Virus record (IMG/VR): IMGVR_UViG_3300035698_005160
Span: 1 to 32,155 of that record
Reading direction: 5' to 3' (one strand)
Origin: a virus
Length of the DNA stretch: 32,155 bases
In this document: piece by piece, positions 8,916 through 31,237 of the stretch
Position numbering within the stretch: the stretch's first letter is position 1
Layout: the number at the start of each line of letters is the position of its first letter
Notes under the pieces: model-generated
Database searches by the model: none
Told to the model about the DNA's origin: nothing
What the model saw: only the letters and a program-made list of their open reading frames with translations
Program-made: the position numbers and the translations under genes

Positions 8916-10202
8916 TTAAAAAGCCCCCTCATAGTAAGCATAGTAAACAACCGCAGCTGTTACGACGCCACTCGTAGCAGTAAGCGTTAGGTTATAAGTA
9001 CCCACGGGTAATGTAATAAACTTGGCACCACTGGGAAACGGCCAAGGCGTCCCGGAACCCGCTCCATTTTCGTAGTATTTTATGCCCCTGTATCCTGGTC
9101 TGCAATCAAATACTATCGTATCGTCAGCATTGACACTAGCCCCGCTCGTTTCAATATATTCACTATCGCTATTGGTTACCCTCGGTGTGTTGCATATCCC
9201 TGTAATGGTAATAACTGGCCAGGACGGTACGTCGCCAGCCACAAGGCAAGACGCCAATAGTGAAGTCCTCATAAGCGTAACAGTATCGAAATACGCCACG
9301 CCAGCAGCATTCGGCGCGTGAAACTTGATATAAAGCGAGACGCAATCAGTAGGCACCACAAAACTAGACGTAACCACAGCATACGTCGCAGCAGTGACGC
9401 CAGTATCAGATAACGCCACAATATCGGCGGCATTTGTAATATCGTATACTAGGAACTGGCCCTGTTCTGTGGCGTCGCCTCTAGTATAAAACGATAGTTT
9501 GATTGTCTCTCCTGGAATCACAGTTATAGCGGCAGATTGTATGCTCGTTTGCGCTGTTGCGTATGTTAGCATGGCTGCATAATCCCCAGCCTGTGCCGTT
9601 GCTGTCGCTTCCACTTTATCGCCGCTAGGGTCATCTACCCCGTCGTTTGTCCAGTTGTCTAGTGTATCGCTCGTTCCGTCGTCCTCTGTTCCCGTTATTG
9701 CCGCAAAGTCCCCGTTTGTTACTGCGATTGCAGTATTCATACCAGCGTTCACCGTCGTTGGTGTTTCTGTGCGGAAAAAAGGATTCGGCCCGATATACTG
9801 TTGGTTTACGGTTTCTACGATTACGTTACGATCTATAAACTCCGGTTTCATTGGTATGCAGTCAAGTATACGTGTATCCCCTCCGTGTGATATGATCTTT
9901 AGTTGTCCCATGCCGCGCCGTGTCGCGTGCCAGTTTACCCAAGTTTTCCTGATTGCTTCAAGCCCGGCCGGTGTTCTTGTGTCCGGATATAGTCTGTATG
10001 TCGCGCTCACCAGCCGTGGCGTGTATGCCGTTGTCCTGTATCGTGACGCATATAGGTTTGCGGTTGGCTCGATTATATGCTCACTGTCCAGTGCGTCAAG
10101 GCCCTGTTCGTTATCTTGTAGTATATATTGGTTTGCTGCTGTGCTGTCGTATAGCGTGCGCGTATTACTGTCGCCGTCTATGAAATATCGTTTATTAGCC
10201 AC
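8916..10202 (-). CDS. Distal tail protein (Dit-like) with inserted carbohydrate-binding domain
   Basis: A 428-residue protein directly after the tape measure, the usual Dit position; the first 8 bases overlap the tape measure end. Residues 1-150 look like a Dit belt domain (YFIDGDSNTRTLYD, then TPRLVSATYRLYPDTRTPAG). Residues about 160-310 look like an inserted beta jelly roll of the CBM4/9 kind (DNWTNDGVDDPSG, then IPGETIKLSFYTRGD, then CVSLYIKFHAP, then AYFDTVTLMR). The C-terminal 110 residues close the Dit core. Evolved Dit proteins with inserted CBMs are known to bind cell-surface sugars. Confidence 0.7.
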   Translation of the reverse strand: MANKRYFIDGDSNTRTLYDSTAANQYILQDNEQGLDALDSEHIIEPTANLYASRYRTTAYTPRLVSATYRLYPDTRTPAGLEAIRKTWVNWHATRRGMGQLKIISHGGDTRILDCIPMKPEFIDRNVIVETVNQQYIGPNPFFRTETPTTVNAGMNTAIAVTNGDFAAITGTEDDGTSDTLDNWTNDGVDDPSGDKVEATATAQAGDYAAMLTYATAQTSIQSAAITVIPGETIKLSFYTRGDATEQGQFLVYDITNAADIVALSDTGVTAATYAVVTSSFVVPTDCVSLYIKFHAPNAAGVAYFDTVTLMRTSLLASCLVAGDVPSWPVITITGICNTPRVTNSDSEYIETSGASVNADDTIVFDCRPGYRGIKYYENGAGSGTPWPFPSGAKFITLPVGTYNLTLTATSGVVTAAVVYYAYYEGAF

Positions 10203-13200
10203 TAAAGCCCCCTAGTCCGGCCACTACATGAATTCCCTCTACCAGGTCGGTATTCTCCTGTATTGTCATTGTAGCTCCCTTTCCGTCCGCATCTCCGCCC
10301 GTGAGTACTGTTATTGTTATTCCATTGCTTGTGAATCCATTTAATGCGTTTGTAAACGCGTCCATTGCGATGCTTACGCCTTGGGGCAGGTTTCCTGAAC
10401 CGCCCGCGCCATAGTCAGCAATGCTGCTTGCGGTGCTTCCCTGTGTCCCGCCGTTTACAGTCTCCAATTGTGCCATTATTGCCTGCGCGTTGCCGACATT
10501 GATTCCGCCTATGTCTGCTGTGGCCTGTATGCTTTGGGCTAGCTCCCCTATGCCCTTCCATAGCCCTGCCTGTGCGCTTACTGTCTGTTGGGCTATAACT
10601 AGGTCAGCCCCGTACTCCGTGTGTATTCTCATTAGTTCTGGCATGGCTATGTCTGTGACTTCGCCTAGTGCTGACACGTTCTCTATGAGACGGTTTTTCC
10701 ACCCTCTTTGTGGCGCGTCTACGTCTGGCGCTGTTGTTACCAAGTCTATTAGGCTCTTGAAGTGACCCGATGTTACCGCGTATTCTGCATACAATGCCCG
10801 CGTATCGCTGTCTAGCCCCTCCATCAGCGACGCAGCCCCGGCTATCATATCCTTTTGCAGTTGTATGTTGGCCGGTAGCGCTGCTGTGGCTAACGCAGCC
10901 TCTGTTGCCGTTGGCATCTTGTCTGTGCCAAGGTCGAATAGCTTGTATAGCGCACTAAGGTCTGTTGCTACTAGCGCCTCTTCCTTCAACAATGAGCGAG
11001 TCTCTTGCGGTATTCCCACCATCCAATTATGTGCTGCTCCCGTTGCGTCTTTTGCTTGCTTTACTATTATTGGTAGGTCTTGTGCCCAGTCGCCTTGATA
11101 TGTTGACATTTCGTTCACGTCGCCGAAGGCGTCGTATAGTTTACCCAACAATTCTGTGGTCTTTGCGCCCTCTTCGAGTAGCGCCAGTGCGTCTTCTTTG
11201 CTGCCTACCATGTCCGGGTACAGTTTTTGTATCCGGTTCGGGACGTCGGTCGCCCACTGGAGCAGAACGCTTGTAGCTTCTTGCCCCTGCTGTGTGACTT
11301 TTTTCAGTGTGTCACTGTATTCTGCCCCCGCCGCCTTCAGTGACCGAGGATCAAATGAGAATAGTTTGGTAAGGTTGGCCAATGGTGCTAGCGAGGATTG
11401 TATCTCCGCTAGCTTTTTCTTCGTGTCGTTTTCGTTTAGTGTGTCCCACATAGAGCTGGCTGCTTCTGTCCAGAATTTACCCATCTCTATAAAGCCCTGC
11501 TTCATTTCAGGACTGAATACTACACCGGGGAGATTCAACATGGCTTCCTTGCCAGCCTCTATGCCCTCTGCTATATCTTTGCTAACGTCTGCTAACGCTC
11601 GGCTTACTGGCTCCTTCGCTCCCGTTACTCCGCCCGCTATACCGTCGCCTATAGCCGATCCGACTCCTGTAGCCACCTCTCCGGCCGCTGCGAGTATTTC
11701 GTCTAGTACGCCAGCCATCTCCGCCTGAATATCGGCAAATATACCCTCTGCGCCTGCGGCCCCGCCGCCGCCTTCCGCTCCCGCATTTCTATAGGCGTCT
11801 ATGATCTTTAGGCTTGACATACTATGCTCTTTTTGAGCGTCCAGTGCCTTCTTGTATGCCGCCGTCCGTTGCTTATGCTCCTCTAAATTCCAGATGCCGT
11901 TTATCTTGTACACGCCCTGTCCTGTGGCGTTGGTTATACCGAATTCGCCCATTGCTTGCGCTTGCATAGCTTTGAATGTATCGGCGCTGAATTCTCCGCG
12001 GTCTACTAGGTTCTGTAGGTATGCCATAAGCGCGTCACGACGCTGCAAGAGTTGGCTCTTCTTTAGGAGCAACTCCTGCATTTTATTGCTTTTGTTTGTG
12101 CTTTGTTCTTGTCGGCTATAGTTTTCGTCTAGCGCCGCCACTTCCGCCTCCTGTCCTGTGGCGATTAGTGCGGCCCTGTCAGCCTCATATTGTGCGCGTG
12201 CGGCTATCTGGTCTACTTGCTGAGTGAATAGCATATCCTGCTGTGCATAGGCCGCGTCTTGCGCTTGTGTTGTCTGTTGTGTAGCATAGTCTAGTTCTAT
12301 CGCCGCGAGTGCGTTCTTATGCTCTGTTCTAGCTGCTAGCTCGGCCGCATAGTATGCCTGCTTGCGCGTTGCATTTGCGGCGTCCATTTCCGAGTCCTGC
12401 GTTGTCGTCGCAGCTTTTAGGTCGCCCATGCCTAGTGCGGCAGGGCCCTCTAGCGCATTCCGCTCTCTCATGGCGGCCATCTCGCCGCGTATCGCTTTTT
12501 CTGATTGTTTGGCCGCGCTGGTTAGTGCTGCTTCCCCTGTTGCAGCCCTTCCAGCCACAGGGTTTATTTTAGCTAGTTCTGCGGTTAGCTCTTCTACTGT
12601 CATGGCGCCAAACTCAAAGCGAGTGAATAGCGCGTCGTAGCCAGCTTCTTGCACTTGTATCTGCTCGAACGTAAGCGCGCCCAGTTTTTTCTGTTCTTTT
12701 AGGCTTTTCGCGAAAGCATCCATTATAGGTCGGCCTTGTGCAATCTTCCCAAAGTGGCCTGCTATTTTACCGAGGCCCGTGGCCATTGCGCCTACGCCCT
12801 CCCCGGCTGCGCCGGTTCCCATTGTTGCCCCGAAATTTGCTTTTAGGTTCATAAAGCTAGCGGATAGTGCTTCTATGTTGCCGGCTTGGTCTCTTGCTGC
12901 GTTTCCTGCGGCCTCTAACATTTCTGCGCTGCTGCCCATAATCTCGTTTACAATGGCCTGCTTTTCCTCGACTTGTGTGAGCAGGTCTACTGTCGTTCCC
13001 ATTTCTGCCGCGTAGTTTATATACGCCTGCTCTGTATCCAGGACAATTCCCAGATTGTCAAGAATAGGCGCTGATTGTCGGCCTATACCTGTCACCAGGT
13101 CATTAAACGCCGCGCTTGTGCTCATTCCCATTGCTTTGCCGCGCGCCGCGGCCACCTGCATTAGCTTACCAAGCTGTTCGGCGTCGTCGGATACTTCGAG

Positions 13201-13569
13201 TAGTGCCGCTCTGTTGCTTGCCAGCATCAAGTCACTGTCTGTTATCGTGCCCTGGCTAGCAGCCCTTAGACTCTCCAGCGCAGCTATACCTTGCGATACG
13301 CCCCCCTGCATTTGATTGAATCCGGTTGTGACCCTTGTTAATCCTGCGCCGAGTTCTGCCATTTCCCACGCATACTTGGCGACTTCTCCGGCAACGAACT
13401 GTTTACGCAAGCGCCCGAACCGCTCGTTCATTGCGTTGGTAGCCTGTGCTGCTACCGACGTATTTTTACCAAGAGTCTTTAGTGCGGTGCCAAGTTTTTT
13501 AAATCCTTTTGACGCCTTGTCCTCTGATCTGATAATGAGGGAAAGTATCTTTTTACTGCCTGCTGCCAT
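10195..13569 (-). CDS. Tail tape measure protein
   Basis: A 1124-residue protein, helical and Ala/Gln/Glu-rich, starting MAAGSKKILSLIIRSEDKAS, the usual opening of siphovirus tape measures. A hydrophobic Gly/Ala-rich stretch lies around residues 630-660 (VATGVGSAIGDGIAGGVTG). The ATG has GGAG six bases upstream. At about 0.15 nm per residue the tail would be near 170 nm (a family rule, not measured). Unusually, it is separated from the assembly chaperone genes by a plus-strand gene island and must have its own promoter, probably within 13570-13830. Confidence 0.9.
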   Translation of the reverse strand: MAAGSKKILSLIIRSEDKASKGFKKLGTALKTLGKNTSVAAQATNAMNERFGRLRKQFVAGEVAKYAWEMAELGAGLTRVTTGFNQMQGGVSQGIAALESLRAASQGTITDSDLMLASNRAALLEVSDDAEQLGKLMQVAAARGKAMGMSTSAAFNDLVTGIGRQSAPILDNLGIVLDTEQAYINYAAEMGTTVDLLTQVEEKQAIVNEIMGSSAEMLEAAGNAARDQAGNIEALSASFMNLKANFGATMGTGAAGEGVGAMATGLGKIAGHFGKIAQGRPIMDAFAKSLKEQKKLGALTFEQIQVQEAGYDALFTRFEFGAMTVEELTAELAKINPVAGRAATGEAALTSAAKQSEKAIRGEMAAMRERNALEGPAALGMGDLKAATTTQDSEMDAANATRKQAYYAAELAARTEHKNALAAIELDYATQQTTQAQDAAYAQQDMLFTQQVDQIAARAQYEADRAALIATGQEAEVAALDENYSRQEQSTNKSNKMQELLLKKSQLLQRRDALMAYLQNLVDRGEFSADTFKAMQAQAMGEFGITNATGQGVYKINGIWNLEEHKQRTAAYKKALDAQKEHSMSSLKIIDAYRNAGAEGGGGAAGAEGIFADIQAEMAGVLDEILAAAGEVATGVGSAIGDGIAGGVTGAKEPVSRALADVSKDIAEGIEAGKEAMLNLPGVVFSPEMKQGFIEMGKFWTEAASSMWDTLNENDTKKKLAEIQSSLAPLANLTKLFSFDPRSLKAAGAEYSDTLKKVTQQGQEATSVLLQWATDVPNRIQKLYPDMVGSKEDALALLEEGAKTTELLGKLYDAFGDVNEMSTYQGDWAQDLPIIVKQAKDATGAAHNWMVGIPQETRSLLKEEALVATDLSALYKLFDLGTDKMPTATEAALATAALPANIQLQKDMIAGAASLMEGLDSDTRALYAEYAVTSGHFKSLIDLVTTAPDVDAPQRGWKNRLIENVSALGEVTDIAMPELMRIHTEYGADLVIAQQTVSAQAGLWKGIGELAQSIQATADIGGINVGNAQAIMAQLETVNGGTQGSTASSIADYGAGGSGNLPQGVSIAMDAFTNALNGFTSNGITITVLTGGDADGKGATMTIQENTDLVEGIHVVAGLGGFSG

Positions 13570-13635
13570 GTATTCTCCAGTCTGACTGATGCCGTCGTTG
13601 TTTTTCCCGTTAAAGGATTGCGTATTCTATCTCTA

Positions 13636-13650
13636 TGCGAACTTTTGCGA
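13636..13650 (+). repeat. TGCGA decamer array, outer part
   Basis: Two TGCGA motifs spaced exactly 10 bp (TGCGAACTTTTGCGA). This is the same unit as in the larger array at 13746-13790, on the far side of the CATATA hexamer tract. It lies in the 395-base gap between the tape measure start and the plus-strand island. Confidence 0.7.
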
Positions 13651-13672
13651 TACATATACAACTACAACTATG

Positions 13673-13700
13673 TATACATATACATATACATATACATATA
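13673..13700. repeat. CATATA hexamer tract
   Basis: About four to five copies of a CATATA/TATACA hexamer in a row, wholly A/T plus one C per unit, lying between two TGCGA arrays. Such a tract melts easily. In this setting it may be an unwinding element or a spacer, or simply slippage. Confidence 0.75.
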
Positions 13701-13745
13701 CCAGAAGTTTTTCTTGATGTTTCATTTGTTCGCAATGGAGTCTCT

Positions 13746-13790
13746 TGCATACCTTTGCGAACTTTTGCGAACTTTTGCGAGTCCATGCGA
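13746..13790 (+). repeat. TGCGA decamer array, 10-bp phased
   Basis: Successive decamers ACCTTTGCGA, ACTTTTGCGA, ACTTTTGCGA and GTCCATGCGA are preceded by a degenerate TCTCTTGCAT, so TGCRW recurs five times at exactly 10-bp steps. One inverted copy (TTCGCA) sits at 13729-13734. Ten-base phasing places the motifs on one face of the helix, as for multimeric protein binding (inference). A replication-type iteron cluster or an operator array are both possible. Confidence 0.7.
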
Positions 13791-13805
13791 ACCAGAACAT
13801 ACAAT

Positions 13806-13864
13806 CGCGAAATAATTTCGTGAAATTCACCAAGTCCGCAATTCTTTAGTGGCTTGCTAAAGAA
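13806..13864 (+). repeat. Dispersed CCAAG element, copy b
   Basis: It contains CGAAATAATTTCG (a perfect inverted repeat), the exact core AATTCACCAAGTCC at 13824-13837, CGCAATT, then an imperfect inverted repeat TTTAGTGGCTTGCTAAA and GAAT. It lies between the tape measure and the island, so it could serve both directions. Confidence 0.75.
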
Positions 13865-13890
13865 TACACGCTATGATAATTTGTCATTAA

Positions 13891-13942
13891 AATGTCACAA
13901 TATTTCGCTCGCATAGTGCTATACTATATATGCAAGTGAGGG
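13891..13942 (+). promoter_or_regulatory. Rightward promoter of the island, copy 2 of the 52-bp promoter
   Basis: TGCTATACT at 13918-13926 supplies an extended -10 (TG-N-TATACT at 13920-13925). The block runs from AATGTCA to AAGTGAGGG and matches 39 of 52 bases of minus-strand 306-255. The first island gene begins 22 bases after the block. The conserved AAGTGAGGG would lie at the very start of the transcript. Confidence 0.65.
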
Positions 13943-13964
13943 ACACAAAAAGTCAGGGGGCACA

Positions 13965-14153
13965 ATGAAAGGCTTCATGCAATGCACGGCACTGGTAGCC
14001 AGGACTCGCAAAGTCTACACAGAGCGGTTTATGCTATACTACAACAGCAACATGTGCTCGACAGTAGCCTACGCCAAATGGTGGGCCAAAACGGATACCA
14101 TGCGTATTCTGGATCTGTCGCGATACTCGGTTAACCAAGCTATAGCAGAATAA
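13965..14153 (+). CDS. Island protein 1: single three-helix module
   Basis: A 62-residue protein with ribosome site GGGGG. Residues 11-62 fit the island module: a first helix with spaced Tyr residues (VYTERFMLYY), a short turn, a second helix with Ala and aromatics (AYAKWWAKT), and a last short helix after LDLSRYSVNQAIAE. The match to the other copies is weaker than that among modules 3, 4b and 5. It is the first gene behind the island promoter. A DNA-binding role is inferred from the HTH-like ending only. Confidence 0.6.
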   Translation: MKGFMQCTALVARTRKVYTERFMLYYNSNMCSTVAYAKWWAKTDTMRILDLSRYSVNQAIAE

Positions 14154-14165
14154 CGGGAAAACAAG

Positions 14166-14378
14166 ATGATAACCTTCAAAAGAAATACGCAATATGAAGT
14201 CGAAGTATACGGGCCAGCTAATGAGCTAAACAACTATCTTGAGGCACTGATAGCCTCAGAAGAAGTTGATTCAGCGACAAGGGCCACTAACGACAACAAC
14301 GCGGCCGTGGTGTATTTCGGAGCAACGAACCCAATCGTCAGTAAGCTGCCCCCAATCGGGTCAGTATGGACAAGCTAA
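14166..14378 (+). CDS. Island protein 2: unrelated 70-residue hypothetical
   Basis: A 70-residue protein, the only island protein that does not show the three-helix module. It starts with strand-like sequence (MITFKRNTQYEVEVYG), then a helix (ELNNYLEALIASEEV) and another strand segment (AAVVYFGA), an alpha/beta mini-domain. It is spaced 12 bases from gene 1 and gene 3, in the same operon. No family recognised. Confidence 0.6.
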   Translation: MITFKRNTQYEVEVYGPANELNNYLEALIASEEVDSATRATNDNNAAVVYFGATNPIVSKLPPIGSVWTS

Positions 14379-14390
14379 CAGGAGAAAACG

Positions 14391-14570
14391 ATGAATATCT
14401 CGGCTAGACTGTCAGATCGCGTATATAGGCTCTATCGGGCGCACTATAATGCAAAACTTGCCGAAGGATATACGCCATGCACGGCGCGCTATATCGCGCG
14501 TGAAAAGACTGCGAAAGCCTTCTATATCGACATTGAAACCGTGACCAACGCAATTTACAGGAGTAAATAA
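14391..14570 (+). CDS. Island protein 3: single three-helix module, 59 residues
   Basis: This short gene runs ATG at 14391 to TAA at 14570 with GGAG at good spacing. The protein has helix one RVYRLYRAHYNAKLAEG, then TPCTARYIAREKTAKAFYID, then IETVTNAIYRSK. It shares the A-R-Y-x-A...TA-x-x-[FY]...V-x-x-A-[IV] pattern with gene 4 (second half) and gene 5. The last two helices look like an HTH, but no known HTH family was recognised. The next gene follows after one base with its own GGAG. Confidence 0.7.
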   Translation: MNISARLSDRVYRLYRAHYNAKLAEGYTPCTARYIAREKTAKAFYIDIETVTNAIYRSK

Positions 14571-14571
14571 A

Positions 14572-14922
14572 ATGACTAGCCTAGCAAAAGTATACGAACA
14601 ATATACAACGCACTTGGCGCGCCAGCAAGGATTCTCGCCACAAACGTCTATCATGCGAGCGACGATGAAAACCGCAGATCAATACTCGCTGTCGTATCGC
14701 CAAGCATCCGAATTTATCAGAATGGGGAAAACAATGCCTATGTCGGCGAGACTCAAGAAGACCATGCTCAACGAGTATAATCGGTGGTATCATCGCCAAG
14801 TCGCCAAGGGGAGCCTGCGCGGCCTAGCACGTTATACCGCAGTCCAAAAGGTCGCGGAATTCTACGACGTGACGCCAGAAGAAGTGAGCGCGGCGGTCAC
14901 GGATGCAGAAAACAATGAATAA
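14572..14922 (+). CDS. Island protein 4: tandem three-helix modules
   Basis: A 116-residue protein made of two modules. Residues about 3-52 (LAKVYEQYTTHLARQQGF, ending YRQASEFIRMGK) are followed by residues about 59-111 (MLNEYNRWYHRQVAKGS, then ARYTAVQKVAEFYDVTPEEV, then SAAV). The second module is closest to island protein 5. Twice the usual length suggests fusion by tandem duplication of a single-module gene. Two HTH-like units in one chain would suit binding to repeated DNA sites (inference). Confidence 0.7.
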   Translation: MTSLAKVYEQYTTHLARQQGFSPQTSIMRATMKTADQYSLSYRQASEFIRMGKTMPMSARLKKTMLNEYNRWYHRQVAKGSLRGLARYTAVQKVAEFYDVTPEEVSAAVTDAENNE

Positions 14923-15100
14923 CAGCAGGGTAAGTGACGAAGCAATAATAGGAGAATACTTGCGGCGATATTGTATCTTATTGCATACCTGGTTCGGGCA
15001 AAAGTTCGCTAGGCGGACGGCAATGGAGCACACCGCAAATCACTGTGGAATGACAGTAGAAGAAGTAGCCGCTATGATAGACGCGAGGAGAAAGCGATGA
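14903..15100 (+). CDS. Island protein 5: single three-helix module
   Basis: A 65-residue protein (61 if the ATG at 14915 is used; neither start has a clear ribosome site, so translation is probably coupled to gene 4, which it overlaps). Segment ARRTAMEHTANHCGMTVEEV lines up with ARYTAVQKVAEFYDVTPEEV of protein 4, the clearest evidence of common descent within the island. It ends AAMIDARRKR, a basic tail. The gene overlaps the next as ATGA. Confidence 0.65.
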   Translation: MQKTMNNSRVSDEAIIGEYLRRYCILLHTWFGQKFARRTAMEHTANHCGMTVEEVAAMIDARRKR

Positions 15101-15288
15101 AGGCTACAGTACACCCGGCAGTAAGTGCCTCGAAAATTCGCGACGCGTACAGGGAGCAAATGAAGGCACACAAGCATAGAAGCGTTGGCGCCCCACCAGA
15201 ATTGTTGCGAAGACTAATTATTCACCGGCTAGCAAAGCGATTTAAACTATTCGAGTCCACAATAGCGGAAGTAACAGAAGGATTGTAG
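15097..15288 (+). CDS. Island protein 6: single three-helix module, basic
   Basis: A 63-residue protein with GAGGAG before the ATG and an ATGA overlap with gene 5. The module reads KIRDAYREQMKAHKHRS, then PPELLRRLIIHRLAKRF, then FESTIAEVTEGL. It is rich in Lys, Arg and His, in line with nucleic-acid binding. A strong intrinsic terminator follows within 10 bases, so it ends the first island operon. Confidence 0.65.
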   Translation: MKATVHPAVSASKIRDAYREQMKAHKHRSVGAPPELLRRLIIHRLAKRFKLFESTIAEVTEGL

Positions 15289-15296
15289 CATAGACT

Positions 15297-15325
15297 GGCC
15301 GGGGTCAACCCTCGGCCTTTTTTTT
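15297..15325 (+). terminator. Rho-independent terminator of island operon 1
   Basis: GGCCGGGG pairs with CCTCGGCC (one G-U) around a five-base loop and is followed by a run of nine T. Position directly after gene 6 fits. Confidence 0.9.
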
Positions 15326-15332
15326 GTTTTTT

Positions 15333-15360
15333 GCGCGAAATTCACCAAGTCCGCAGTTGT
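15333..15360 (+). repeat. Dispersed CCAAG element, copy c
   Basis: GCGCGAAATTCACCAAGTCC, then GCAGTTGT; exact core at 15339-15352. The inverted repeat half is not well kept here. It lies between the terminator of island operon 1 and the promoter of gene 7. Confidence 0.7.
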
Positions 15361-15407
15361 TTTGATTGTCGATCAGGTTAATAAAGTATTGGGGTCTTTT
15401 TCTCGAT

Positions 15408-15435
15408 TTGACAGATTCTGGAATCATGGTACAAT
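15408..15435 (+). promoter_or_regulatory. Strong sigma70-like promoter of island gene 7
   Basis: TTGACA (15408-15413), 16 bp, TACAAT (15430-15435), with TG in the extended -10 position. This gives the last island gene its own transcript. Confidence 0.8.
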
Positions 15436-15473
15436 ATGATTGTAACGATACACTAGTCGAAGGAGAAAACGAA

Positions 15474-15803
15474 ATGATGAGCGCAAGAAATAAGGAAATG
15501 GTTCGTGAGTCTTACGCCGTATATCTGAAGCGATATACCGACCGAGGGGGGTTCACGACTGCATCATCGGAAGAAGCCGCAATGTGGCACACTTGCCTAT
15601 TCCACGCAATCTCCGAGACGGCATTCCGCAAGGCGATGCTCACCAAAGAGCAAGTGAGGGAGGAATACCGCAGGCGCCTCAAGCTCTACAAGGGGCAGAC
15701 GCTCTGGACCGAGGACCGATGCAGACGAACGGCCCGCGAGTGGATTATGGTGCAACACGACCTAACCGAAGCCGAACTGATGGACTTCTTGACTAGAGAC
15801 TAG
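15474..15803 (+). CDS. Island protein 7: tandem three-helix modules
   Basis: A 109-residue protein; ATG at 15474 with AGGAG upstream is preferred to in-frame starts that precede the promoter. It has two modules: residues about 5-55 (EMVRESYAVYLKRYTDRGGF, ending ETAFRKAMLT) and about 56-109 (EQVREEYRRRLKLYKGQTLW, then DRCRRTAREWIMVQHDLTEA, ELMDFL). Both open with the same V-R-E-x-Y motif, so the halves are repeats of each other. It has a separate promoter and the convergent terminator at 15822-15853. Confidence 0.75.
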   Translation: MMSARNKEMVRESYAVYLKRYTDRGGFTTASSEEAAMWHTCLFHAISETAFRKAMLTKEQVREEYRRRLKLYKGQTLWTEDRCRRTAREWIMVQHDLTEAELMDFLTRD

Positions 15804-15821: not shown

Positions 15822-15853
15822 ACAAGCGAGGGGCAATTTGGCCCCTCGCTTGT
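15822..15853. terminator. Bidirectional terminator between island and tail operon
   Basis: A perfect 13-bp stem (ACAAGCGAGGGGC with GCCCCTCGCTTGT) and a six-base loop, placed between two converging genes. It ends transcripts from both strands and isolates the island from the minus-strand tail genes. Confidence 0.85.
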
Positions 15854-15856
15854 TGT

Positions 15857-16120
15857 TTATGTCAGTCGTTTGGTTGTGGCCCGCTTCGATAGACGAATTA
15901 TCAGTTCATCTATGTATTGTGCTGGCTGTTGCTGTATTTGCCAGTAGTCCATGCCGGTTGCTTCGAGTATGTCCAGCTCGTTTGTGTACTGTGCTGATAC
16001 CATGCGTTTCCTCCCGTTCTTGTATAGCTGTTCATACTCTATTCTAACGCGCCTTGCCCATTGCTCTAGTGTACCGTCTAGAGCACCAAAGTAGGGTTGC
16101 GGTCTGCTATTTCCCCACAA
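15857..16120 (-). CDS. Tail assembly chaperone, downstream reading frame
   Basis: An 87-residue frame that begins inside the end of the first chaperone gene in the -1 frame. This is the arrangement of the lambda G/T pair, where frameshifting makes a longer GT protein. The sequence WGNSRPQPYFGALDGTLEQW is typical of such second frames. The only early start is a TTG with a weak ribosome site, so it may be made by a -1 shift, by reinitiation, or both. The -1 frame is closed upstream by a TAA, so any shift must occur within the last 15 or so codons of the first gene. No canonical X-XXY-YYZ heptamer lies there; a P-site slip at C-CCT is one option. Confidence 0.6.
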   Translation of the reverse strand: MWGNSRPQPYFGALDGTLEQWARRVRIEYEQLYKNGRKRMVSAQYTNELDILEATGMDYWQIQQQPAQYIDELIIRLSKRATTKRLT

Positions 16121-16458
16121 ACTTTATCCCACAATGGATCATCTATGTCGATTCTAGTAAAGGTTTTCGAGCTAAACGGCACTGGCTTATCGTCATCTAC
16201 GATATTCCAGGCTGTGACAGCAAGGCGTAGTAGGATCATAACCCTGTCTTCTGGTCTGTATTGGCGTTCTAGTACGGTGTTTGTCTCCTCTTCGCCAGTC
16301 TCCTCGTTGAGTTCGGTTTTCTCCACGTTTGTCCAGTTCCATAGCGCGCCATTGAATTTTGCGCGGTCCTCTAGTGTTAGCTTCGCTTTAATCTCGACCC
16401 AATCGCCTGAATCGTCTACGCTAACCTTTACTGCCGTATCGCTTACAAATCTACTCAT
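16078..16458 (-). CDS. Tail assembly chaperone, upstream reading frame
   Basis: A 126-residue acidic protein starting MSRFVSDTAVKVSVDDSGDW, with a central acidic segment (NEETGEEE) and DRVMILLRLAVTAWN. It lies right after the tail tube gene, the usual place of the G-like chaperone that keeps the tape measure soluble during tail assembly. The 43-base overlap with the next frame supports the assignment. Confidence 0.65.
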   Translation of the reverse strand: MSRFVSDTAVKVSVDDSGDWVEIKAKLTLEDRAKFNGALWNWTNVEKTELNEETGEEETNTVLERQYRPEDRVMILLRLAVTAWNIVDDDKPVPFSSKTFTRIDIDDPLWDKVCGEIADRNPTLVL

Positions 16459-16471: not shown

Positions 16472-17479
16472 TTACGGTAGTGCTGCCAATGTGTTTACGT
16501 TAATGAATTGTAGTTGTGTACTATCCGAGTCCACTATATTGTACTCGAATGTCATGGTGTCGTCTCCATCGTCCTCTTCTAGGCCCGGGACGTTTGTTGG
16601 GACTCCCGCCATGTTTATCTGTAGCGTCTTGTATATATAGCTACTGCCTGCTGTCGTGAACGCCGAGCCGGTGAAACTCATTCTGATTAGCTGTACTGTG
16701 CCGGCTTGTGCCGCTGCTCGCAGTGCTTCGCCGTTTGCGTTGTGTCGCATAGTCAAGCTAACAGTAGGCGCGTCTGTAGGACTCCAGATTGGAGAAGTAA
16801 AGTATAGCGAACCGTCGGCGGCAAACAATGGCAAGTAACCAGTCGGGACCGCCAGAGAGAATCCCAACCAGGAGGCGGTTTTGGCCGTTGTGCCTATTGT
16901 GCCGCCGGCTGCGTCCATTGTCAGTATTCCCTTATTGAATAGAATCTCTTCGACTGTTGGCGCCGTTTGTCCAGCAGTGAAGGCGCAGTCTGTTAGTTGT
17001 CGGCCCCTCCACGTTCCCTCGACTGTAACCGACTCGTTACGCGCGCCCGCTAGTGTGAACGTCTCGACGAACGCGTATTCCATTTCGTCCGACTCTTGTG
17101 TGTTGCCGCCCTCGATTGTATAGTATTCTAGTGTCGCCGCGCTCGTGTTGGATACGTCGTGCTGCCATATTTTTCCGCTGCCGCCTGTGTCCGTTGCCGG
17201 TGTTCCCACGCGTTCTACTCCCGCCTGGAACCAATAGCCGATTTGCTCAAATGTCGCTGGGTGTGTCGGAACCTCAATCATTGCGGCCGTGTTCGGTCTA
17301 TAGTGGCGACCTTTGCCGAATCGCTGTCCTGTAGCTTCGTCTTCGACAAGCTCCACTATCCCCTCGTCAATCATAACCGCGCCGTCTCTAGGCCAGCGCA
17401 TTACGGTTGTTGCCGCTACTGCAGTCCCTGCTGTGGCCTCTGTTCCGAACTGAACTTTTCTCAATACTGTTGCGCCCAT
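16472..17479 (-). CDS. Major tail tube protein
   Basis: A 335-residue beta-rich protein opening MGATVLRKVQFGTEATAGTA, a form common in siphovirus tail tube proteins. Its first half has the repeating strands of the tube fold, and a second beta domain follows (LPLFAADGSLYFTSPIW and later). Position between neck genes and assembly chaperones fits. The start is preceded by AGGACAC directly before ATG. It polymerises as rings around the tape measure to form the tail shaft. Confidence 0.8.
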   Translation of the reverse strand: MGATVLRKVQFGTEATAGTAVAATTVMRWPRDGAVMIDEGIVELVEDEATGQRFGKGRHYRPNTAAMIEVPTHPATFEQIGYWFQAGVERVGTPATDTGGSGKIWQHDVSNTSAATLEYYTIEGGNTQESDEMEYAFVETFTLAGARNESVTVEGTWRGRQLTDCAFTAGQTAPTVEEILFNKGILTMDAAGGTIGTTAKTASWLGFSLAVPTGYLPLFAADGSLYFTSPIWSPTDAPTVSLTMRHNANGEALRAAAQAGTVQLIRMSFTGSAFTTAGSSYIYKTLQINMAGVPTNVPGLEEDDGDDTMTFEYNIVDSDSTQLQFINVNTLAALP

Positions 17480-20922: not shown

Positions 20923-20950
20923 TTGTCGTGTGTCCTCTCGTAAATCACAA

Positions 20951-21005
20951 TATTATTTCGCGAAATTCACCAAGTACGCAGTTGCTGAGTAGATTACTAA
21001 AGAAT
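20951..21005 (+). repeat. Dispersed CCAAG element, copy d
   Basis: TATTATTTCGCGAAATTCAC, then CAAGTACGCAGTTG, with core 20964-20977 (one mismatch), followed by AGTAGATTACT and AAAGAAT. Read on the minus strand it lies between a terminator hairpin and the next gene. Confidence 0.75.
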
Positions 21006-21006
21006 A

Positions 21007-22456: not shown

Positions 22457-22478
22457 CTATTCTGTGTCCTTTCGTTTT

Positions 22479-22536
22479 GAAAATTATTTGCTGAAATTCA
22501 CCAAGTCCGCAATTGTTTACGTTCTTGGTAAACAAC
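22479..22536 (+). repeat. Dispersed CCAAG element, copy e
   Basis: Exact core at 22495-22508, then GCAA and a perfect 8-bp inverted repeat TTGTTTAC-7-GTAAACAA at 22513-22535. The inverted repeat keeps its pairing while differing in sequence from the other copies, which argues that the structure matters. Confidence 0.8.
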
Positions 22537-22556
22537 CTAAGAAAAGATCTCAAGAA

Positions 22557-22589: not shown

Positions 22590-24005
22590 TTAGACCAGAA
22601 TGTTCATGATTCCAGCAGTGTGCGTTGCGCTCGCGCGTGTACCGTGTGCTGCCAGTCCCTGTCTAAACGAGGTTACCATGAGATACATTCTCTTTTGAAT
22701 GTCTTTATCCATTTCTATCAGTAGGTTGCGCCAGAAGCCGACGTACCACATATCGCGATGGAAGCAACTAATCTGTCCTAGTGTGTTGTTGCCTGCTGTC
22801 GTTGACACTTTACCATCGGCCATAGTCAACGGCGACTCACCGGACAAAACGACAGGAATACCGCGATACTTGCTAATCTCGCCAGTCAACAGTACGGCCT
22901 GCGGCCCAAACTTGTCAAGAGTCATAACGCCGTCAAGAGACTGCAAACCCTTGAAATAGGTTGACACGTCGCAAGTCATCACTGTTCTGTCCAGGTCTGC
23001 CCCGTATTTGCCCAATAGTACGAGCATATCTGCCACGTCTGTATCGGCCAGCGCGTTGCCTCCGGCGTCTACGGTTTGTGTGTCGTAGTCTACTAGCCAT
23101 TGGTGACGAATACCGTCCTGCCCATCTGATAGGTAGTATGTTGTGGCTGCTGGGTCTGCATCGTCCAGGTTAATGTTTCCTGTACCTGCGTCTGTGCTGT
23201 CTGCGTTCAAGAAGAACGCGTCCATCTTGGCGGCGCCAGACCGAATTACTCCGGCTCGCATTGCGGGGATCATGGCTATAATGCTGTCTTCGTCCAGCGT
23301 ATACGACCAATTCTGCTCTGTCATAAGCTCGGTCGCGGTCATGGTACTCCTGGCAGTTGCCATTGTACTAGCTGTGGCTGCGGTATTCTCTGTTCCCTTG
23401 GTCCATGTTGGATCTCCCAGGCCAATAGGCAAGTTATATGGGTTCGTTGGCGGTGTAATAGGCATGGCTAGGCTGACCAGCTTACTCGCCAGGAAAAAGT
23501 CTTCCCATAGCGTTGCTGCTAGGCCAGTTGGCACCAGCTCGTCTCCTGTGGTGCTGCCTGTGCTGGTCATGTTTGCCTTAATGTATTCTACGGCCTTGCA
23601 TAGGTCGTCACTCGCCGCGTCCGGTCTTTGACCGCTGGTAGGAATCCAGTTGTCAATTTGTGTATCCATCATCATTTTAGCAAGCCACAGGTCCATTGGC
23701 GTATAGACGCTCATACCAGAGCGGTAATACCCGTCCTTTTCAAAGCCCTGCGCCATTCTGTAGTAGCGGCTATCCTTCGTTACCATCGAACTAGTGTCGC
23801 CTGCCTTGTGAGCGTCGCCAATCGCGCTATAGTTCGCCATCTTAGCTAGTTCTGCTGTCACCTGCGCCTCAACGCGCTCCTCTACTCTTTTCTCGAATGC
23901 CTCAAGCGCGGCGGTGTTGTCTGGCGTGTTTTTCTCTTGTCGTGTGCGCTCAAGCTCAAGGAGCTCTGTCATTTGTTGTGTTAGCTGGTCCATTTGATCT
24001 GTCAT
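22590..24005 (-). CDS. Major capsid protein, HK97 fold
   Basis: A 471-residue protein. Residues 1-60 form a charged helix (LTQQMTELLELERTRQE) typical of the scaffold-like delta domain removed by the prohead protease. The remainder has the HK97-type order: an N-arm, E-loop region, spine-helix region with DLCKAVEYIKANM, a long middle with LPTGLAATLWEDFF-like sequence, and an axial domain with VMTCDVSTYFKGLQSL and YRGIPVVLSG. The protease gene is four bases upstream. It builds the icosahedral head. Confidence 0.85.
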   Translation of the reverse strand: MTDQMDQLTQQMTELLELERTRQEKNTPDNTAALEAFEKRVEERVEAQVTAELAKMANYSAIGDAHKAGDTSSMVTKDSRYYRMAQGFEKDGYYRSGMSVYTPMDLWLAKMMMDTQIDNWIPTSGQRPDAASDDLCKAVEYIKANMTSTGSTTGDELVPTGLAATLWEDFFLASKLVSLAMPITPPTNPYNLPIGLGDPTWTKGTENTAATASTMATARSTMTATELMTEQNWSYTLDEDSIIAMIPAMRAGVIRSGAAKMDAFFLNADSTDAGTGNINLDDADPAATTYYLSDGQDGIRHQWLVDYDTQTVDAGGNALADTDVADMLVLLGKYGADLDRTVMTCDVSTYFKGLQSLDGVMTLDKFGPQAVLLTGEISKYRGIPVVLSGESPLTMADGKVSTTAGNNTLGQISCFHRDMWYVGFWRNLLIEMDKDIQKRMYLMVTSFRQGLAAHGTRASATHTAGIMNILV

Positions 24006-24008: not shown

Positions 24009-24710
24009 TTACGTTCTCCCTTGTGTCAATAATTGTCGTAACGCTAGGTAATTTGTAACAAGGTCCAGTGCTTCAGCCTGTTTTAGATTGTATGCAGCCA
24101 CGGCGGCCTCGGCTTCCGTCTCTTGCTGTTTCATAAGTTGGCCTGCTTCCGACTTCGCTTCTTCGGCGTCGGATAGTGCCGCTGTCAGTGTGACCACCTC
24201 CTCACGCAAGGTTGCCAGCGTTTCGCCGTCGTCTGCGGTCAAGCCCTTGTATGCTAGGCGTAGCGCCTCTGCGTTTGCCGGCACTGGTACTAGTGACCAT
24301 TCCAATAGATTCCAGTCGGTAAAATCGTATCCGTTGTCGTCATTCTGCGTATATCCGTTGTCGTTTACGTCGAACCCTATGCTGGCTGTCTTGATCCAGC
24401 CTCCCTCCCACAATAGCCTAATAATGTGCATTGGGTCCGCTTCGCTTGCGGCCGGTCGCAGTGTAAACTCGGCTATCCATTTGTTGTCTTCGGCCGTGAG
24501 GCTGGTTGTATTACCTATGGTTGCCCAAGGGTCTCTGTAATTGTGGCCCCATTGAACCACGGGGTTCTGCATATACTGCGCTATTTTAGCGCCCGTTGCT
24601 ACGACTCGATCATTTTGCCTGTCTAGTGAACCCGTCGTGATTATAATGCGTCCGCCGTCAGCCGTTGCCTGTTCTACCTCAAAGTCGAACGTTTTAACTT
24701 GTTTGTCCAT
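24009..24710 (-). CDS. HK97-family prohead protease (peptidase S78)
   Basis: A 233-residue protein. VVQWGHNYRDPWATIG at 51-66 supplies the catalytic His56, and IKTASIGFDV at 106-115 supplies Ser110. LLEWSLVPVPANAEA at 135-149 gives the acidic third position (Glu137) and the typical end of the protease domain. The last 70 residues form a coiled coil (LREEVVTLTAALSDAEEAKS) that may scaffold or bind the capsid delta domain. It processes the capsid during head maturation and digests itself. Confidence 0.9.
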   Translation of the reverse strand: MDKQVKTFDFEVEQATADGGRIIITTGSLDRQNDRVVATGAKIAQYMQNPVVQWGHNYRDPWATIGNTTSLTAEDNKWIAEFTLRPAASEADPMHIIRLLWEGGWIKTASIGFDVNDNGYTQNDDNGYDFTDWNLLEWSLVPVPANAEALRLAYKGLTADDGETLATLREEVVTLTAALSDAEEAKSEAGQLMKQQETEAEAAVAAYNLKQAEALDLVTNYLALRQLLTQGRT

Positions 24711-25992: not shown

Positions 25993-26155
25993 TCGGCTCC
26001 TCCGTCTTGCTGTTGCTGTTAAGCCTGACTGTTACCACCACTCCCGTTGTTGGGCATTTGAAGACCCACAACTCCATCGCAAGCCCTGGGTATACGTTCA
26101 CTAACTCTACTTCGTGGTTTTCGCCACACGCCGAACATTCCTGTACACTATGCAC
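25985..26155 (-). CDS. Zinc-ribbon-like miniprotein, 56 residues
   Basis: A GTG start at 26155 overlaps the stop of the Ntn hydrolase gene, and the stop overlaps the start of the coiled-coil gene. The frame fills exactly the gap between the two genes, which strongly supports it. The protein begins HSVQECSACGENHEVELV and continues MELWVFKCPTTGVVVTV: one CxxC knuckle and a later CP, a reduced zinc-ribbon pattern in which the fourth Cys is replaced. It may pair with the CPYCG of the next protein. Function unknown. Confidence 0.65.
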   Translation of the reverse strand: MHSVQECSACGENHEVELVNVYPGLAMELWVFKCPTTGVVVTVRLNSNSKTEEPNV

Positions 26156-26708
26156 CTGTGTTCTCCAGTTTAATGACGGTAATGTCGCCGCCTACCGATA
26201 CTGTGTGACGCGCCGCTGCTTCTATCGCCATTCCGATTCGTCCTGCTTTATCTTGCCCTTCGCTAGCGTACATTGCGCCCTCCGCGACTTTTGCCCCGCT
26301 ACCTATCGCCACATAGTTTCCGATGGACTCTAGGACTGAATAGTCCGTCTGAACCTCGAATAATCGCCCCTTATAGCCGATTAGGAATGGCCCGCCCTTT
26401 TCTTCGCCGCTCTCGTTTCGTGAGAACCCGTTGTCGTCGAATAGCTTTCTGATACAGTCTATAATAGTATCTACCATATACTCTAGCGCGTCTACGTTAT
26501 TCTCGTTTGCTGGCACGTCCAGTCGATATCGTAACAGTTGGCCCATCCTGAATGACCAGGTATACCCTATAACGAACTTTTCCCCATGTGTCTCTAGTGC
26601 GAACACTTTCGGGTGCGCGTTCACCATTTTACTGTCACCAGCAGTGCCCTGACTATCGCCGCCTATCCAGACTCCCTCTTCATTACAGTATCCTACAATG
26701 CAGGTCAT
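26148..26708 (-). CDS. Proteasome beta/HslV-like Ntn hydrolase
   Basis: A 186-residue protein beginning MTCIVGY. If the first Met is removed, Thr becomes residue 1. Counting from it, Asp17 (in IGGDSQGT) and Lys33 (in HPKVF) fall exactly at the positions of the proteasome catalytic residues. HslV-like GDxQ-T-G, KFVIGYTWSFRMGQLLRYRL and the late GSG, SVGGDITVIKLE segments follow, and length matches HslV. So an active threonine peptidase is likely. It lies between portal and capsid genes and has its own consensus promoter. It may act in head maturation or degrade host proteins. No HslU-type ATPase is in the window. Confidence 0.85.
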   Translation of the reverse strand: MTCIVGYCNEEGVWIGGDSQGTAGDSKMVNAHPKVFALETHGEKFVIGYTWSFRMGQLLRYRLDVPANENNVDALEYMVDTIIDCIRKLFDDNGFSRNESGEEKGGPFLIGYKGRLFEVQTDYSVLESIGNYVAIGSGAKVAEGAMYASEGQDKAGRIGMAIEAAARHTVSVGGDITVIKLENTGA

Positions 26709-26747
26709 AGGCTCTTGGCTCCCCTCACTAAAGCTCGACTCAATGAC

Positions 26748-26776
26748 ATTATATCATAAACCCAGAACCTTGTCAA
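26748..26776 (-). promoter_or_regulatory. Consensus sigma70 promoter of the Ntn hydrolase
   Basis: TTGACA (26776-26771), 17 bp, TATAAT (26753-26748), with TGA before the -10 box. Both hexamers match consensus exactly. AGTGAGGGG at 26729-26721 follows downstream, as in the two 52-bp promoters. It would allow expression by host polymerase early and independent of the terminase-portal unit. Confidence 0.9.
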
Positions 26777-26778: not shown

Positions 26779-28938
26779 TTACGGCTTAACCCAGTACAAT
26801 GCGCACCGACAATGTATAATCTCCTTTGGTTCGCGGCCTAGTCCCGGCGCTTGCATTTTATCTGTGCCTATTAGAAAGTCATCGTTTGGCCCTATTGGGT
26901 TCTGAGCATAGTCTATATGTGCCTGTACGTGTGTTCTGCGCGTCGTGTCGTCTAGTGCTGCTATCCAGCCCTTTTTCAAGCGTTCTCCGCTCTGGCGTCC
27001 TGCCTCAAGCGTGCCTGTCGAGCTGGCTTTGTTCATTTCCGTTCTTGCTATTCTTCTGGTTTCGTATGGTGTTTTTCTCACATTAAAGACTAGGCTGATT
27101 CCTTCGTATATCAGTTGTCTAATCTCTTCTGTGCTTAGGTTGTTATCATCCCCGTACTGTAGAATTTCCCTAACCTTGTCTGCCATGCGTATCTGCGTTG
27201 TAGCGTTTATGTCCCTAGCGAACTGTATAACCATTTCTTTAATAGCGGCTTGCACAAACGGGCTTGATTCGTCGAACGACTTGCTTCTTCTCAAGTCGTT
27301 TGCTGTCTGCTCCCCGAAATACCTGACGGCCTCGGTATAGCGTGGTGTATGTATCCTGACCAACATTTCGGTTTCTTCTTGCCAATTCACCAAGTCCCCG
27401 ATTATAGTCTGCTGCGCTTTTTTGTGGTCGGCCACCATTGCCCGCGTGTAGGCCATGCCCTTTTGCGCTTTTAGGTTGGTTTGTGCTTCGTTCTGCTGTC
27501 TCTGGAAGTCGCGCTGCAATTGACGAACCATCGACCTAGTATGCGGGTCGAGCCGCTTAACGTGCATGTCCCATAACGTTTTATGCTGTTGACTGCCGTA
27601 TATTACGTTTTTTTTTGCGACGCCCTTGGTTTCGTCGTCTTCCTGTTCCGTATCGTCTTCCGGTTCATTGTCGTCTACTGGAGTCATGTCAGGCATAGGC
27701 TCCGGCTCTGCTGCCGCTTGCGTTATAGGTACTACACTGAACGGCACGAACCCCACGTCTCCGCTCTCTATCGGCCCTGTACCGAGGTTCAGCCCCTCTT
27801 CGAGTTGGTTGTATGATACGCCCATTGACCATAGCCCTTTGGCTACTTCTACCTTTGGCAACAGTTCTTCTTGCAGCGCCCCGACTCCGCTATAGTCTGT
27901 TGCCACCCTCTCGCCTGGGGCCAGTAGTGGACGGCTTCTTGTGAACATGTGCGTTAGGCTGCGGTCCCTGCTATCGCATAGTGATTTTAATGTTAGCTTC
28001 CAGAACCAACTATGCGCGTCTCCATAATTCTCGTATGTATCCCTGCCGTATCCCATAACCTCGTCTGGTACGCCGAATATTGCGGCTACTTCGTCTCTAG
28101 CGAACTCACGTTGTAGCAGCCATTCCGTGTCTTTTGGAGTGAATGACATTGTTTTAATGTCGGTTATGCCCTCTTCCAGTACAATAGGCAACCCTGCCTT
28201 TTTCATCAGGTTATAAATGATCTCGTCTTTTTCGGTCCTTGTGATTCCTTGCGGCGCTATTATCGCATAATCTGGTCTGGCATTGTTTTGTAGGAACCAT
28301 TTCGACCATGCCTGCGCGAATGCGTCTATCTGCACTCCTTCACGCACTGCCGAGAGCACGCTGATTCCTGTCCAGGGGTCTGTAGGATTTACAAACCTAT
28401 CATACCATATATCGCCTGGGTCAATTATGATGTTGGATTTGTCATATCTGTACCCGCCGATGCGCGGAAATCGCTTTGGATCGAATGTTGTATCCTCTAG
28501 TATTTCCATTAGGTCTGTTCTACGGTGCCATAGCTCCAGGGGCTGCCCTAGCATGTTATCTACAACCTCGAAGAAACTCATGCCCGTAAGCAACTTGCTT
28601 ATAATCCATTGCTCCCAAATAGTGTCCTGGGAGTTGGTCGCGTTGCCATTACTGAGGAGCGGCGTTAGTACGTGCCCCTCCACAAACTTATCGTTTTTGT
28701 CCTTTACGCCAACAGGTAGCGGGGTTATCGACCGTTGAATAACAGTGATTGCTTTCCTTACCCAGGTATGATACTCGTATATCTTAGACGCCGATTCAAA
28801 CGTATCTTGCGTAGGCGCCGCGTTTCTTCCGCTTGCGCCTGTACTGAAGATATGTTCTCTGTCCTGTATGTATGTCGGTAGCGCGGACTTGCCGCGCGCC
28901 GCGTCGTATTCAAGTTTAATGCGGTCTATTAGCTTCAT
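26779..28938 (-). CDS. Portal protein fused to MuF-like C-terminal domain
   Basis: A 719-residue protein. The first roughly 420 residues are a portal: YEYHTWVRKAITVIQRSI, then GDIWYDRFVNPTDPWTGISV, then REFARDEVAAIFGVPDEVMG. An acidic linker follows (PDMTPVDDNEPEDDTEQEDD). The last roughly 220 residues form a MuF/minor head domain with RRIARTEMNKASSTGTLEAG and EIIHCRCALYWVKP at the end, including the conserved His-Cys-Arg-Cys pattern. Family knowledge: the portal is the DNA entry ring, and MuF proteins are minor head parts sometimes ejected with DNA. Start overlaps the preceding stop as ATGA. Confidence 0.9.
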   Translation of the reverse strand: MKLIDRIKLEYDAARGKSALPTYIQDREHIFSTGASGRNAAPTQDTFESASKIYEYHTWVRKAITVIQRSITPLPVGVKDKNDKFVEGHVLTPLLSNGNATNSQDTIWEQWIISKLLTGMSFFEVVDNMLGQPLELWHRRTDLMEILEDTTFDPKRFPRIGGYRYDKSNIIIDPGDIWYDRFVNPTDPWTGISVLSAVREGVQIDAFAQAWSKWFLQNNARPDYAIIAPQGITRTEKDEIIYNLMKKAGLPIVLEEGITDIKTMSFTPKDTEWLLQREFARDEVAAIFGVPDEVMGYGRDTYENYGDAHSWFWKLTLKSLCDSRDRSLTHMFTRSRPLLAPGERVATDYSGVGALQEELLPKVEVAKGLWSMGVSYNQLEEGLNLGTGPIESGDVGFVPFSVVPITQAAAEPEPMPDMTPVDDNEPEDDTEQEDDETKGVAKKNVIYGSQQHKTLWDMHVKRLDPHTRSMVRQLQRDFQRQQNEAQTNLKAQKGMAYTRAMVADHKKAQQTIIGDLVNWQEETEMLVRIHTPRYTEAVRYFGEQTANDLRRSKSFDESSPFVQAAIKEMVIQFARDINATTQIRMADKVREILQYGDDNNLSTEEIRQLIYEGISLVFNVRKTPYETRRIARTEMNKASSTGTLEAGRQSGERLKKGWIAALDDTTRRTHVQAHIDYAQNPIGPNDDFLIGTDKMQAPGLGREPKEIIHCRCALYWVKP
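27384..27397 (+). repeat. Dispersed CCAAG element, core copy g inside the portal gene
   Basis: An exact 14-base match to the element core (AATTCACCAAGTCC) in the MuF part of the portal gene, with partial likeness continuing (C-C-x-ATTAT). The inverted repeat is absent. It encodes DLVNW on the minus strand, so it could be coincidence or a co-opted site. Confidence 0.4.
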
Positions 28939-29084
28939 TCACCGCTCCCTATGCTGTATCCCGTTATTGCGACGTACCAAATAAACTTACAATACCGCAC
29001 TGTACACCCAACGACCAGCCCCAAAACGAAAGGAACCGCCCCCAACAACGCATTAGCACACCTGCGAATTACTGTTTTTATCAT
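28935..29084 (-). CDS. 49-residue single-span membrane protein
   Basis: Start ATG overlaps the terminase stop as ATGA, and the stop overlaps the portal start as ATGA. The protein has a basic start (MIKTVIRRCANALL), a hydrophobic span (GAVPFVLGLVVGCTV) and a second partly hydrophobic aromatic stretch (YCKFIWYVAITGYSI). I choose this start over a longer in-frame one that would run within the terminase gene. Function unknown; a membrane peptide between terminase and portal is unusual but seen in some phages. Confidence 0.6.
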   Translation of the reverse strand: MIKTVIRRCANALLGAVPFVLGLVVGCTVRYCKFIWYVAITGYSIGSGE

Positions 29085-30331
29085 CTTCTTCCCCTCGTGT
29101 ATAGCCACATGCGCAGCGCGTCTATTGCGTGATTGTTCAAGTCTAGCGGCTTCTCTTGGTGTTTTTTGCCCTCTGGCGGATACTTGTATCCCGCCATCAT
29201 TTCGTCTACTAGCTTTGGGCATCGCTTAGAGTTTACCATCAGCGTCCGGTGTCCGTTGCCGTCTAGTACCATTTTCCGCATGTGAGTAATGCCGTCTACG
29301 ATGCCGTGCGTTCCGCCCCTAGCCACTATGTCGGCGCGGCGCAATTTGTCTTTAAACGCTGCCGACTCGCTGCCTATGATAGCCATTTCCGGTAGGGGCC
29401 AGTCTTCTACGCCCCATCCTATCTTTAGCCTGTCTATTATGTCCTTGATTGTATGCTCTGGTTGCCGTCCACTATGGTATATTTCGTCGAATACCAGTAT
29501 TCTAGTCGGCTGTCGCTGGATGAAAAGAACCGCACAAGGGTCTACATAACCCTCATCAATTGCGATTTCTATAGGCTTTTCTGGGTCTGGTTCGTCTGTT
29601 GTAAAGTTTTCTGTGCCGAACTGGTCAAACACCAAGTCCTCTGCGCCCGCGTACCAGTCTCCATGTAACCATGCTTCTCGTAGCGGTCCCGCTGGCATCG
29701 TCTCCAGTTCATGCCAGTATGATTCGCTTAGATGCGGGTTATCCCTTGGCAGTGCTGCCAAGAATGCAAATTGATCGGCGTCTGCTTCTAGTTCCTTTGG
29801 CAGCCGTTTTTCTACCCAGTAGTCGCGTACCCAACACGCCGCCGGGTTTGTTGCGCCTACAAACTGGGTATATTCCACTCCAGGCCAGCGCAGTGAACCC
29901 CTCAATGTGTGGAATGTGCGTTCTGGGTTCTTCGTCAGTTCGTCAATGGCTATGCCTGCGAACTCTGCTGACATATACTTGGATGGGTTGTCTAGGTTCC
30001 GTAAAGCAATGATTCCGCTACCGTATTCTGGCTTTAGTACGAATTCGTTACGGTTGCTTCGGTATTTGCCCAGCCATGTCGGAAATTCTGTTACAATCTT
30101 CTCTATTTGCCTGTCGTATAGACTCGGATAGTCTTCACACGCCAGCATGAATCTAGCCCCGACTATTCCTGCGGCGCCTAGTCTCAATAGCTGTCTTAGC
30201 ACGTACCATCGTAACCAGTACGATTTTCCGGGGCCTCTTGATCCGCCGTATAACATATATCGTTTTTTGTCCGCTATCTGTGTTGCCTCCAGCTGCTTTG
30301 CCGTGAAGTCGCAAATTTTACTGAGCTTCAC
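29081..30331 (-). CDS. terL: Terminase large subunit
   Basis: A 416-residue protein. The ATPase half has a Walker A variant GGSRGPGKSY at 29-38, Walker B IAIDE at 127-131 and a coupling motif GATNP at 159-163. The nuclease half has IAIDEGY (Asp259), a second acidic strand VFDEIYHSG (near 280-288) and HAIDALRMWLY near the C terminus, which is common in the TerL RNase H-like fold. It cuts and pumps DNA into the head. GTG start directly abuts the small subunit stop. Confidence 0.95.
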   Translation of the reverse strand: MKLSKICDFTAKQLEATQIADKKRYMLYGGSRGPGKSYWLRWYVLRQLLRLGAAGIVGARFMLACEDYPSLYDRQIEKIVTEFPTWLGKYRSNRNEFVLKPEYGSGIIALRNLDNPSKYMSAEFAGIAIDELTKNPERTFHTLRGSLRWPGVEYTQFVGATNPAACWVRDYWVEKRLPKELEADADQFAFLAALPRDNPHLSESYWHELETMPAGPLREAWLHGDWYAGAEDLVFDQFGTENFTTDEPDPEKPIEIAIDEGYVDPCAVLFIQRQPTRILVFDEIYHSGRQPEHTIKDIIDRLKIGWGVEDWPLPEMAIIGSESAAFKDKLRRADIVARGGTHGIVDGITHMRKMVLDGNGHRTLMVNSKRCPKLVDEMMAGYKYPPEGKKHQEKPLDLNNHAIDALRMWLYTRGRR

Positions 30332-31144: not shown

Positions 31145-31185
31145 TCGTTTCCCCCTGTTGGCTCACGAAATAATAAAAAAAGATC

Positions 31186-31230: not shown

Positions 31231-31237
31231 TGTGTAG

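Follow-up and report, generated by a model that had tools for sequence, protein, structure and literature searches.

Phage accessory or moron loci have been discussed before (PMC7067206), and the locus described here resembles moron genes in being an extra unit with its own promoter and terminator, read on the opposite strand among late genes, and in that relatives lack it at this site or carry something else there. It differs from them in comprising seven genes in two transcription units dominated by one duplicated module, and in using promoter/leader segments and repeated segments (R elements) that are common to other units of the same genome. A second described system, the stoperators of cluster A mycobacteriophages, consists of 13-mers present in more than 20 copies per genome whose orientation follows transcription (PMC9283540). 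The R element is like such operator/stoperator sites in that an asymmetric conserved site recurs between genes throughout the genome. It is unlike them (PMC9283540) in its length of ca. 50 bp, in having seven known copies and in not keeping one orientation relative to transcription.

The window, i.e. the whole 32,155-nucleotide stretch of an IMG/VR virus record that was analysed, carries a siphovirus-like structural gene cluster on the minus strand. PHROGs matches were obtained for TerL (29081-30331), portal (26779-28938), maturation protease (24009-24710) and tape measure (10195-13569), all on the minus strand. Position and relatives point to a putative major capsid protein (22590-24005), a putative tail tube (16472-17479) and a putative tail chaperone pair (15857-16458) on the same strand. 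The last comprises two overlapping frames that follow the tail tube gene and have the look of a chaperone pair, where a programmed frameshift is possible. Within the head gene cluster, 26148-26776 may be an Ntn-hydrolase or proteasome-like gene, judged from the start of its sequence and with no Pfam match, and is preceded by a perfect 12/12 sigma-70 promoter (26776-26748, minus strand). A second contig, L004, belongs to the same phage (99.9% identity across 12,986 bp), to which it adds ca. 4.4 kb. At least 14 tRNA genes are arrayed in the phage, at 31237-32122 of the window and 3996-5350 of L004. Scanning genome contigs with TerL for a host or prophage returned none.

The stretch that separates the tail chaperone genes from the tape-measure gene holds seven plus strand ORFs (P1 to P7), i.e. 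backwards to the structural genes, at exactly the coordinates given in an earlier sequence-only reading of this DNA. Judged by the phage's own codon usage, the annotated frame scores best of the six frames in 7/7 cases, and a clear AGGAG/AGGGG-type Shine-Dalgarno site lies upstream of five of the seven. The first two ORFs encode a basic protein of 62 aa (P1, 13965-14153, pI 9.6) and an acidic one of 70 aa (P2, 14166-14378, pI 4.4). They are followed by P3 (14391-14570, 59 aa, one module) and P4 (14572-14922), which holds two modules, P4a (14572-14733) and P4b (14734-14919). The last 20 nt of P4 are shared with P5 (14903-15100, one module), for which an ATG at 14915 is an alternative start, and the first 4 nt of P6 (15097-15288, a probable module) run across the P5 stop. 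P7 (15474-15803, ATG start) is a tandem module pair, P7a (15474-15638) and P7b (15639-15800).

Homology among the modules was assessed by comparing pairwise BLOSUM62 scores with those of 1000 shuffles. The highest value was obtained for P3 and P4b (z 9.7) and not for P4b and P5 (z 5.7), which had been put forward as the clearest pair. P6 and P7b gave z 4.8. P4 and P7 had both been called tandem duplicates; the halves of P7 are directly similar (z 5.1), whereas those of P4 are not (z 0.6, p 0.27) and are linked only through P3 (P3 and P4a, z 5.2). We further used a jackknife of leave-one-out profile HMMs, with 3000 shuffles and 1159 background ORFs as the reference. Here P3, P4b, P5, P7a and P7b outscored all shuffles and all background ORFs, and the score of P4a was reached by 1/3000 shuffles and no background ORF. 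P6 was weak (reached by 95/3000 shuffles and 14 ORFs), P1 was not significant (343/3000 shuffles, 17 ORFs) and P2 behaved as unrelated (1562/3000 shuffles). Profile-profile comparison with hhalign joined {P3, P4a, P4b, P5} to {P7a, P7b} with an E-value of 8.8e-7 and a probability of 91.5. P6 aligned in register across 46 columns with E 0.0029, at a probability of only 10.6, P1 gave E 0.081 across 17 columns and P2 gave E 0.68. The top outside match of the four-module profile among 2945 ORFs was P7, with both halves; a module search of the window recovers all seven modules, six or seven of which had built the profile.

Six modules in four proteins (P3, P4a, P4b, P5, P7a and P7b) are thus one paralogous family, whose members find one another in the shuffle, jackknife and hhalign comparisons alike. 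Six of the seven genes and eight modules had been claimed. That count holds for these six modules and probably for P6; P1 has a module-like layout without established homology, and P2 is rejected as a member on its jackknife result and hhalign E-value.

Relatives of the module were sought in IMG/VR, INPHARED, plasmids, Pfam, PHROGs, NCBIfam, PADLOC and the PDB, and none were found, so the earlier statement that the module matches no named family held in every library searched. Searches of viral contigs with P4, P7, P3 and a P3/P4b/P5 profile yielded no accepted relative, the contigs of related phages lacked the modules, and no homologue of known function was found for the module proteins. Two loci returned for P3 (L027 and L028) share only a YNAKLAEG stretch inside an unrelated ORF, and a profile match at 31464-31769 of G005 was judged non-homologous.

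AlphaFold2 models were produced for P3 and P7 with the paralogues as the sole alignment rows. The P3 model (pLDDT 93.7) has helices at residues 5-24, 29-44 and 48-58, i.e. of 20, 16 and 11 residues. The P7 model (pLDDT 91.8) has helices at 4-24, 29-44 and 48-55, followed by 58-73, 80-95 and 99-106. A tight turn of 3 residues joins helices 2 and 3 in both models. P3 and both P7 halves are confidently predicted as the same three-helix unit of ca. 55 residues, as would be expected of the shared fold that had been proposed. The paralogue rows partly build this agreement in, so that it does not test the homology claim quite independently, although the alignment for the second half of P7 contained essentially only the sequence of P7b itself. 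Using Foldseek, no significant natural fold match was found for P3 and nothing significant for P7. The best PDB match to P3 was 7dns, a de novo designed all-alpha protein (H5_Fold-0), with a TMq of 0.82 and an rmsd of 1.7 over 56 columns; at E 0.63 and with a designed protein, evolutionary or functional inference is impossible. The best viral structure match was an unnamed 69-aa protein (E 0.2).

The island is organized as two transcription units, P1 to P6 (unit 1) and P7 (unit 2). A probable start region for unit 1 lies at 13915-13950 (plus strand), where alignment with another upstream region revealed a -10-like TATACT followed by a conserved AAGTGAGGG; this layout recurs ahead of the gene lying furthest left in the window (reverse complement of 226-397). 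This promoter call is tentative because a good -35 hexamer is absent. Unit 1 ends in a strong intrinsic terminator (15297-15325, plus strand; GGCCGGGGTCAACCCTCGGCC then TTTTTTTT). P7 has an 11/12 sigma-70 type promoter (15408-15435, plus strand; TTGACA-16-TACAAT, with TG before the -10), and a terminator-like hairpin (15822-15853) separates it from the convergent tail chaperone genes. The promoter and terminator expected of morons are accordingly found, as the P7 promoter and the terminators of both units, with the unit 1 promoter tentative. The P7 promoter and leader (15404-15472, 69 bp) are 93% identical to positions 186-254 of L004. The two genes behind this segment are unrelated to each other, a pattern like that of a copied regulatory cassette. 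In the L004 extension, the shared-promoter gene is followed by DNA cytosine methylase and sigma-r4-like genes. From promoter similarity alone, we infer that the island would be expressed early.

Further repeated DNA is found in the R element, which spans ca. 50 bp and combines a 19-bp core, GAAATTCACCAAGTCCGCA, with a dyad that is a perfect 8-bp one in two copies and imperfect in the rest. Six copies lie in the window, at 354-407 on the minus strand and at 13803-13866, 15328-15362, 20943-21006, 22474-22537 and 31168-31231 on the plus strand, and one lies in L004 (134-180). At up to 3 mismatches the core occurs 5 times in the window, compared with 0.00 expected, and a scan of IMG/VR for the exact core found it only in the other contig of the same phage. 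All seven known copies sit at transcription-unit borders, several directly after a terminator, and their orientation relative to the following gene is not constant. The copy at 13803-13866, which falls in repeat family D2/D4, precedes both P1 and the divergently oriented tape-measure gene, and the copy at 15328-15362 is upstream of P7. Short TTGCGAACTTTTGCGA repeats and a (TACATA)n run occupy 13635-13780, between the tape-measure start and the first of these two copies. No repressor gene was identified in the examined sequence of this phage. Together, the shared promoter/leader and R segments indicate one regulatory segment reused for several transcription units.

In contiguous relatives (L029, L030, L032/L033 and L035), an opposite-strand island between the chaperone and tape-measure genes is absent. 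In a further relative, G002, the site is occupied by a different plus strand ORF (L016 7745-8212), whose 155-aa product has a hydrophobic N-terminus. Since the site is empty in the former and differently filled in the latter, the most suitable reading of the island would be that of an accessory cassette inserted where the gene content varies.

Concerning what the module proteins do, they might be helix-turn-helix (HTH) transcription regulators that autoregulate or control the phage through the R elements at unit borders. The modules resemble tri-helical HTH domains (homeodomain, cI/XRE) in their three helices, the 3-residue turn between helices 2 and 3 and an HTH-like residue spacing, A-x(4)-A-x(4)-[VIL]-[TS]-x-E-x-V, across this turn. 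Moreover, R lies beside both island units and five further borders, as phage operators or stoperators can (PMC9283540). The modules depart from such domains in the length of helix 1 (20 residues) and helix 2 (16 residues), and Foldseek alignments to homeodomains reached a TM of only 0.46-0.49, i.e. below 0.5. The sequence-only reading had looked for a basic recognition helix, but almost every module has an acidic or neutral helix 3, with a net charge of -3 to +1 (P4b, P7b and P6, -3; P5, -2). No HTH family in the Pfam, PHROG or NCBIfam models matched with a meaningful score, although the same Pfam library recognised sigma-70 region 4 in L004 (3023-3229), the sole HTH-like gene nearby. Finally, the best match of the module profile outside the island proteins, a partial one to a cI-like HTH protein in L029 (20215-20580), aligns C-terminal to the predicted HTH of that protein and was judged non-homologous. 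Because of the charge of helix 3, the lack of an HTH family match and the position of this outside match, we regard the regulator reading as possible and partly supported, but do not favour it. The nearby regulatory segments could equally well be targets of the modules themselves.

We consider it rather doubtful that the proteins act as accessory factors by binding RNA or DNA without sequence specificity through the basic face of helices 1 and 2, e.g. on tRNA, mRNA or replication intermediates. All member proteins are basic (pI 9.0-10.6), the positive charge lies in helices 1 and 2, with a mostly basic helix 1 (net charge 0 to +4), and the number of tRNA genes in the phage would fit such a role. 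However, small phage proteins often have a basic pI, and neither a homologue nor a fold match was found among nucleic-acid-binding families. Far less probable is a role as virion or tail-assembly components of the neighbouring tail genes: the position between the tail chaperone and tape-measure genes would suit it, yet the island is on the opposite strand, has its own promoters and terminators and is missing at this site in relatives. Chance likeness, in which small basic helical proteins of a generic kind happen to share residues, is scarcely credible. P1 and partly P6 speak for it by failing the jackknife when taken singly, but it is rejected for the six modules by five of them outscoring every shuffle and background ORF, by the profile-profile E-value and by the equal helix lengths and turns in the P3 and P7 models.

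The paralogy of the six modules, their one predicted fold, the anatomy of the cassette, its absence from the site in relatives and the shared promoter/leader are the ground on which our own reading is placed. We propose that the island is a moron-like accessory cassette which sits where the tail-chaperone and tape-measure genes of a siphovirus-like phage meet and is read in the opposite direction to the structural genes, with regulatory segments of its own of the kind found ahead of other non-structural genes of the phage. It would encode phage-private basic three-helix domains of ca. 55 residues, a set presumably grown by repeated duplication that includes two tandem-duplicated proteins. Expressed early, the module proteins would most likely bind and modify host or phage machinery, in host takeover or counter-defence. 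Binding, to protein or in a non-canonical manner to nucleic acid, would take place through the positive face of helices 1 and 2 or through protein contacts, and not through helix 3 inserted into DNA in the manner of a classical HTH. We assign a probability of about one half to this reading as a whole, an accessory cassette with a duplication-grown orphan family of early host-directed or counter-defence factors. The molecular function of the module proteins is inferred, and host takeover or counter-defence by duplicated orphans is a plausible candidate role.

Small accessory phage proteins are mostly single orphans. A paralogous set within one genome allows function and target range to be compared between siblings, and the six-module family provides a seed profile for finding members elsewhere. 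Tentatively, and with the odds against it, the modules might even be a new fold-level effector family private to one phage lineage, which diversifies by intragenomic duplication in a portable early-expression cassette and in which each paralogue would have a different host or defence target.
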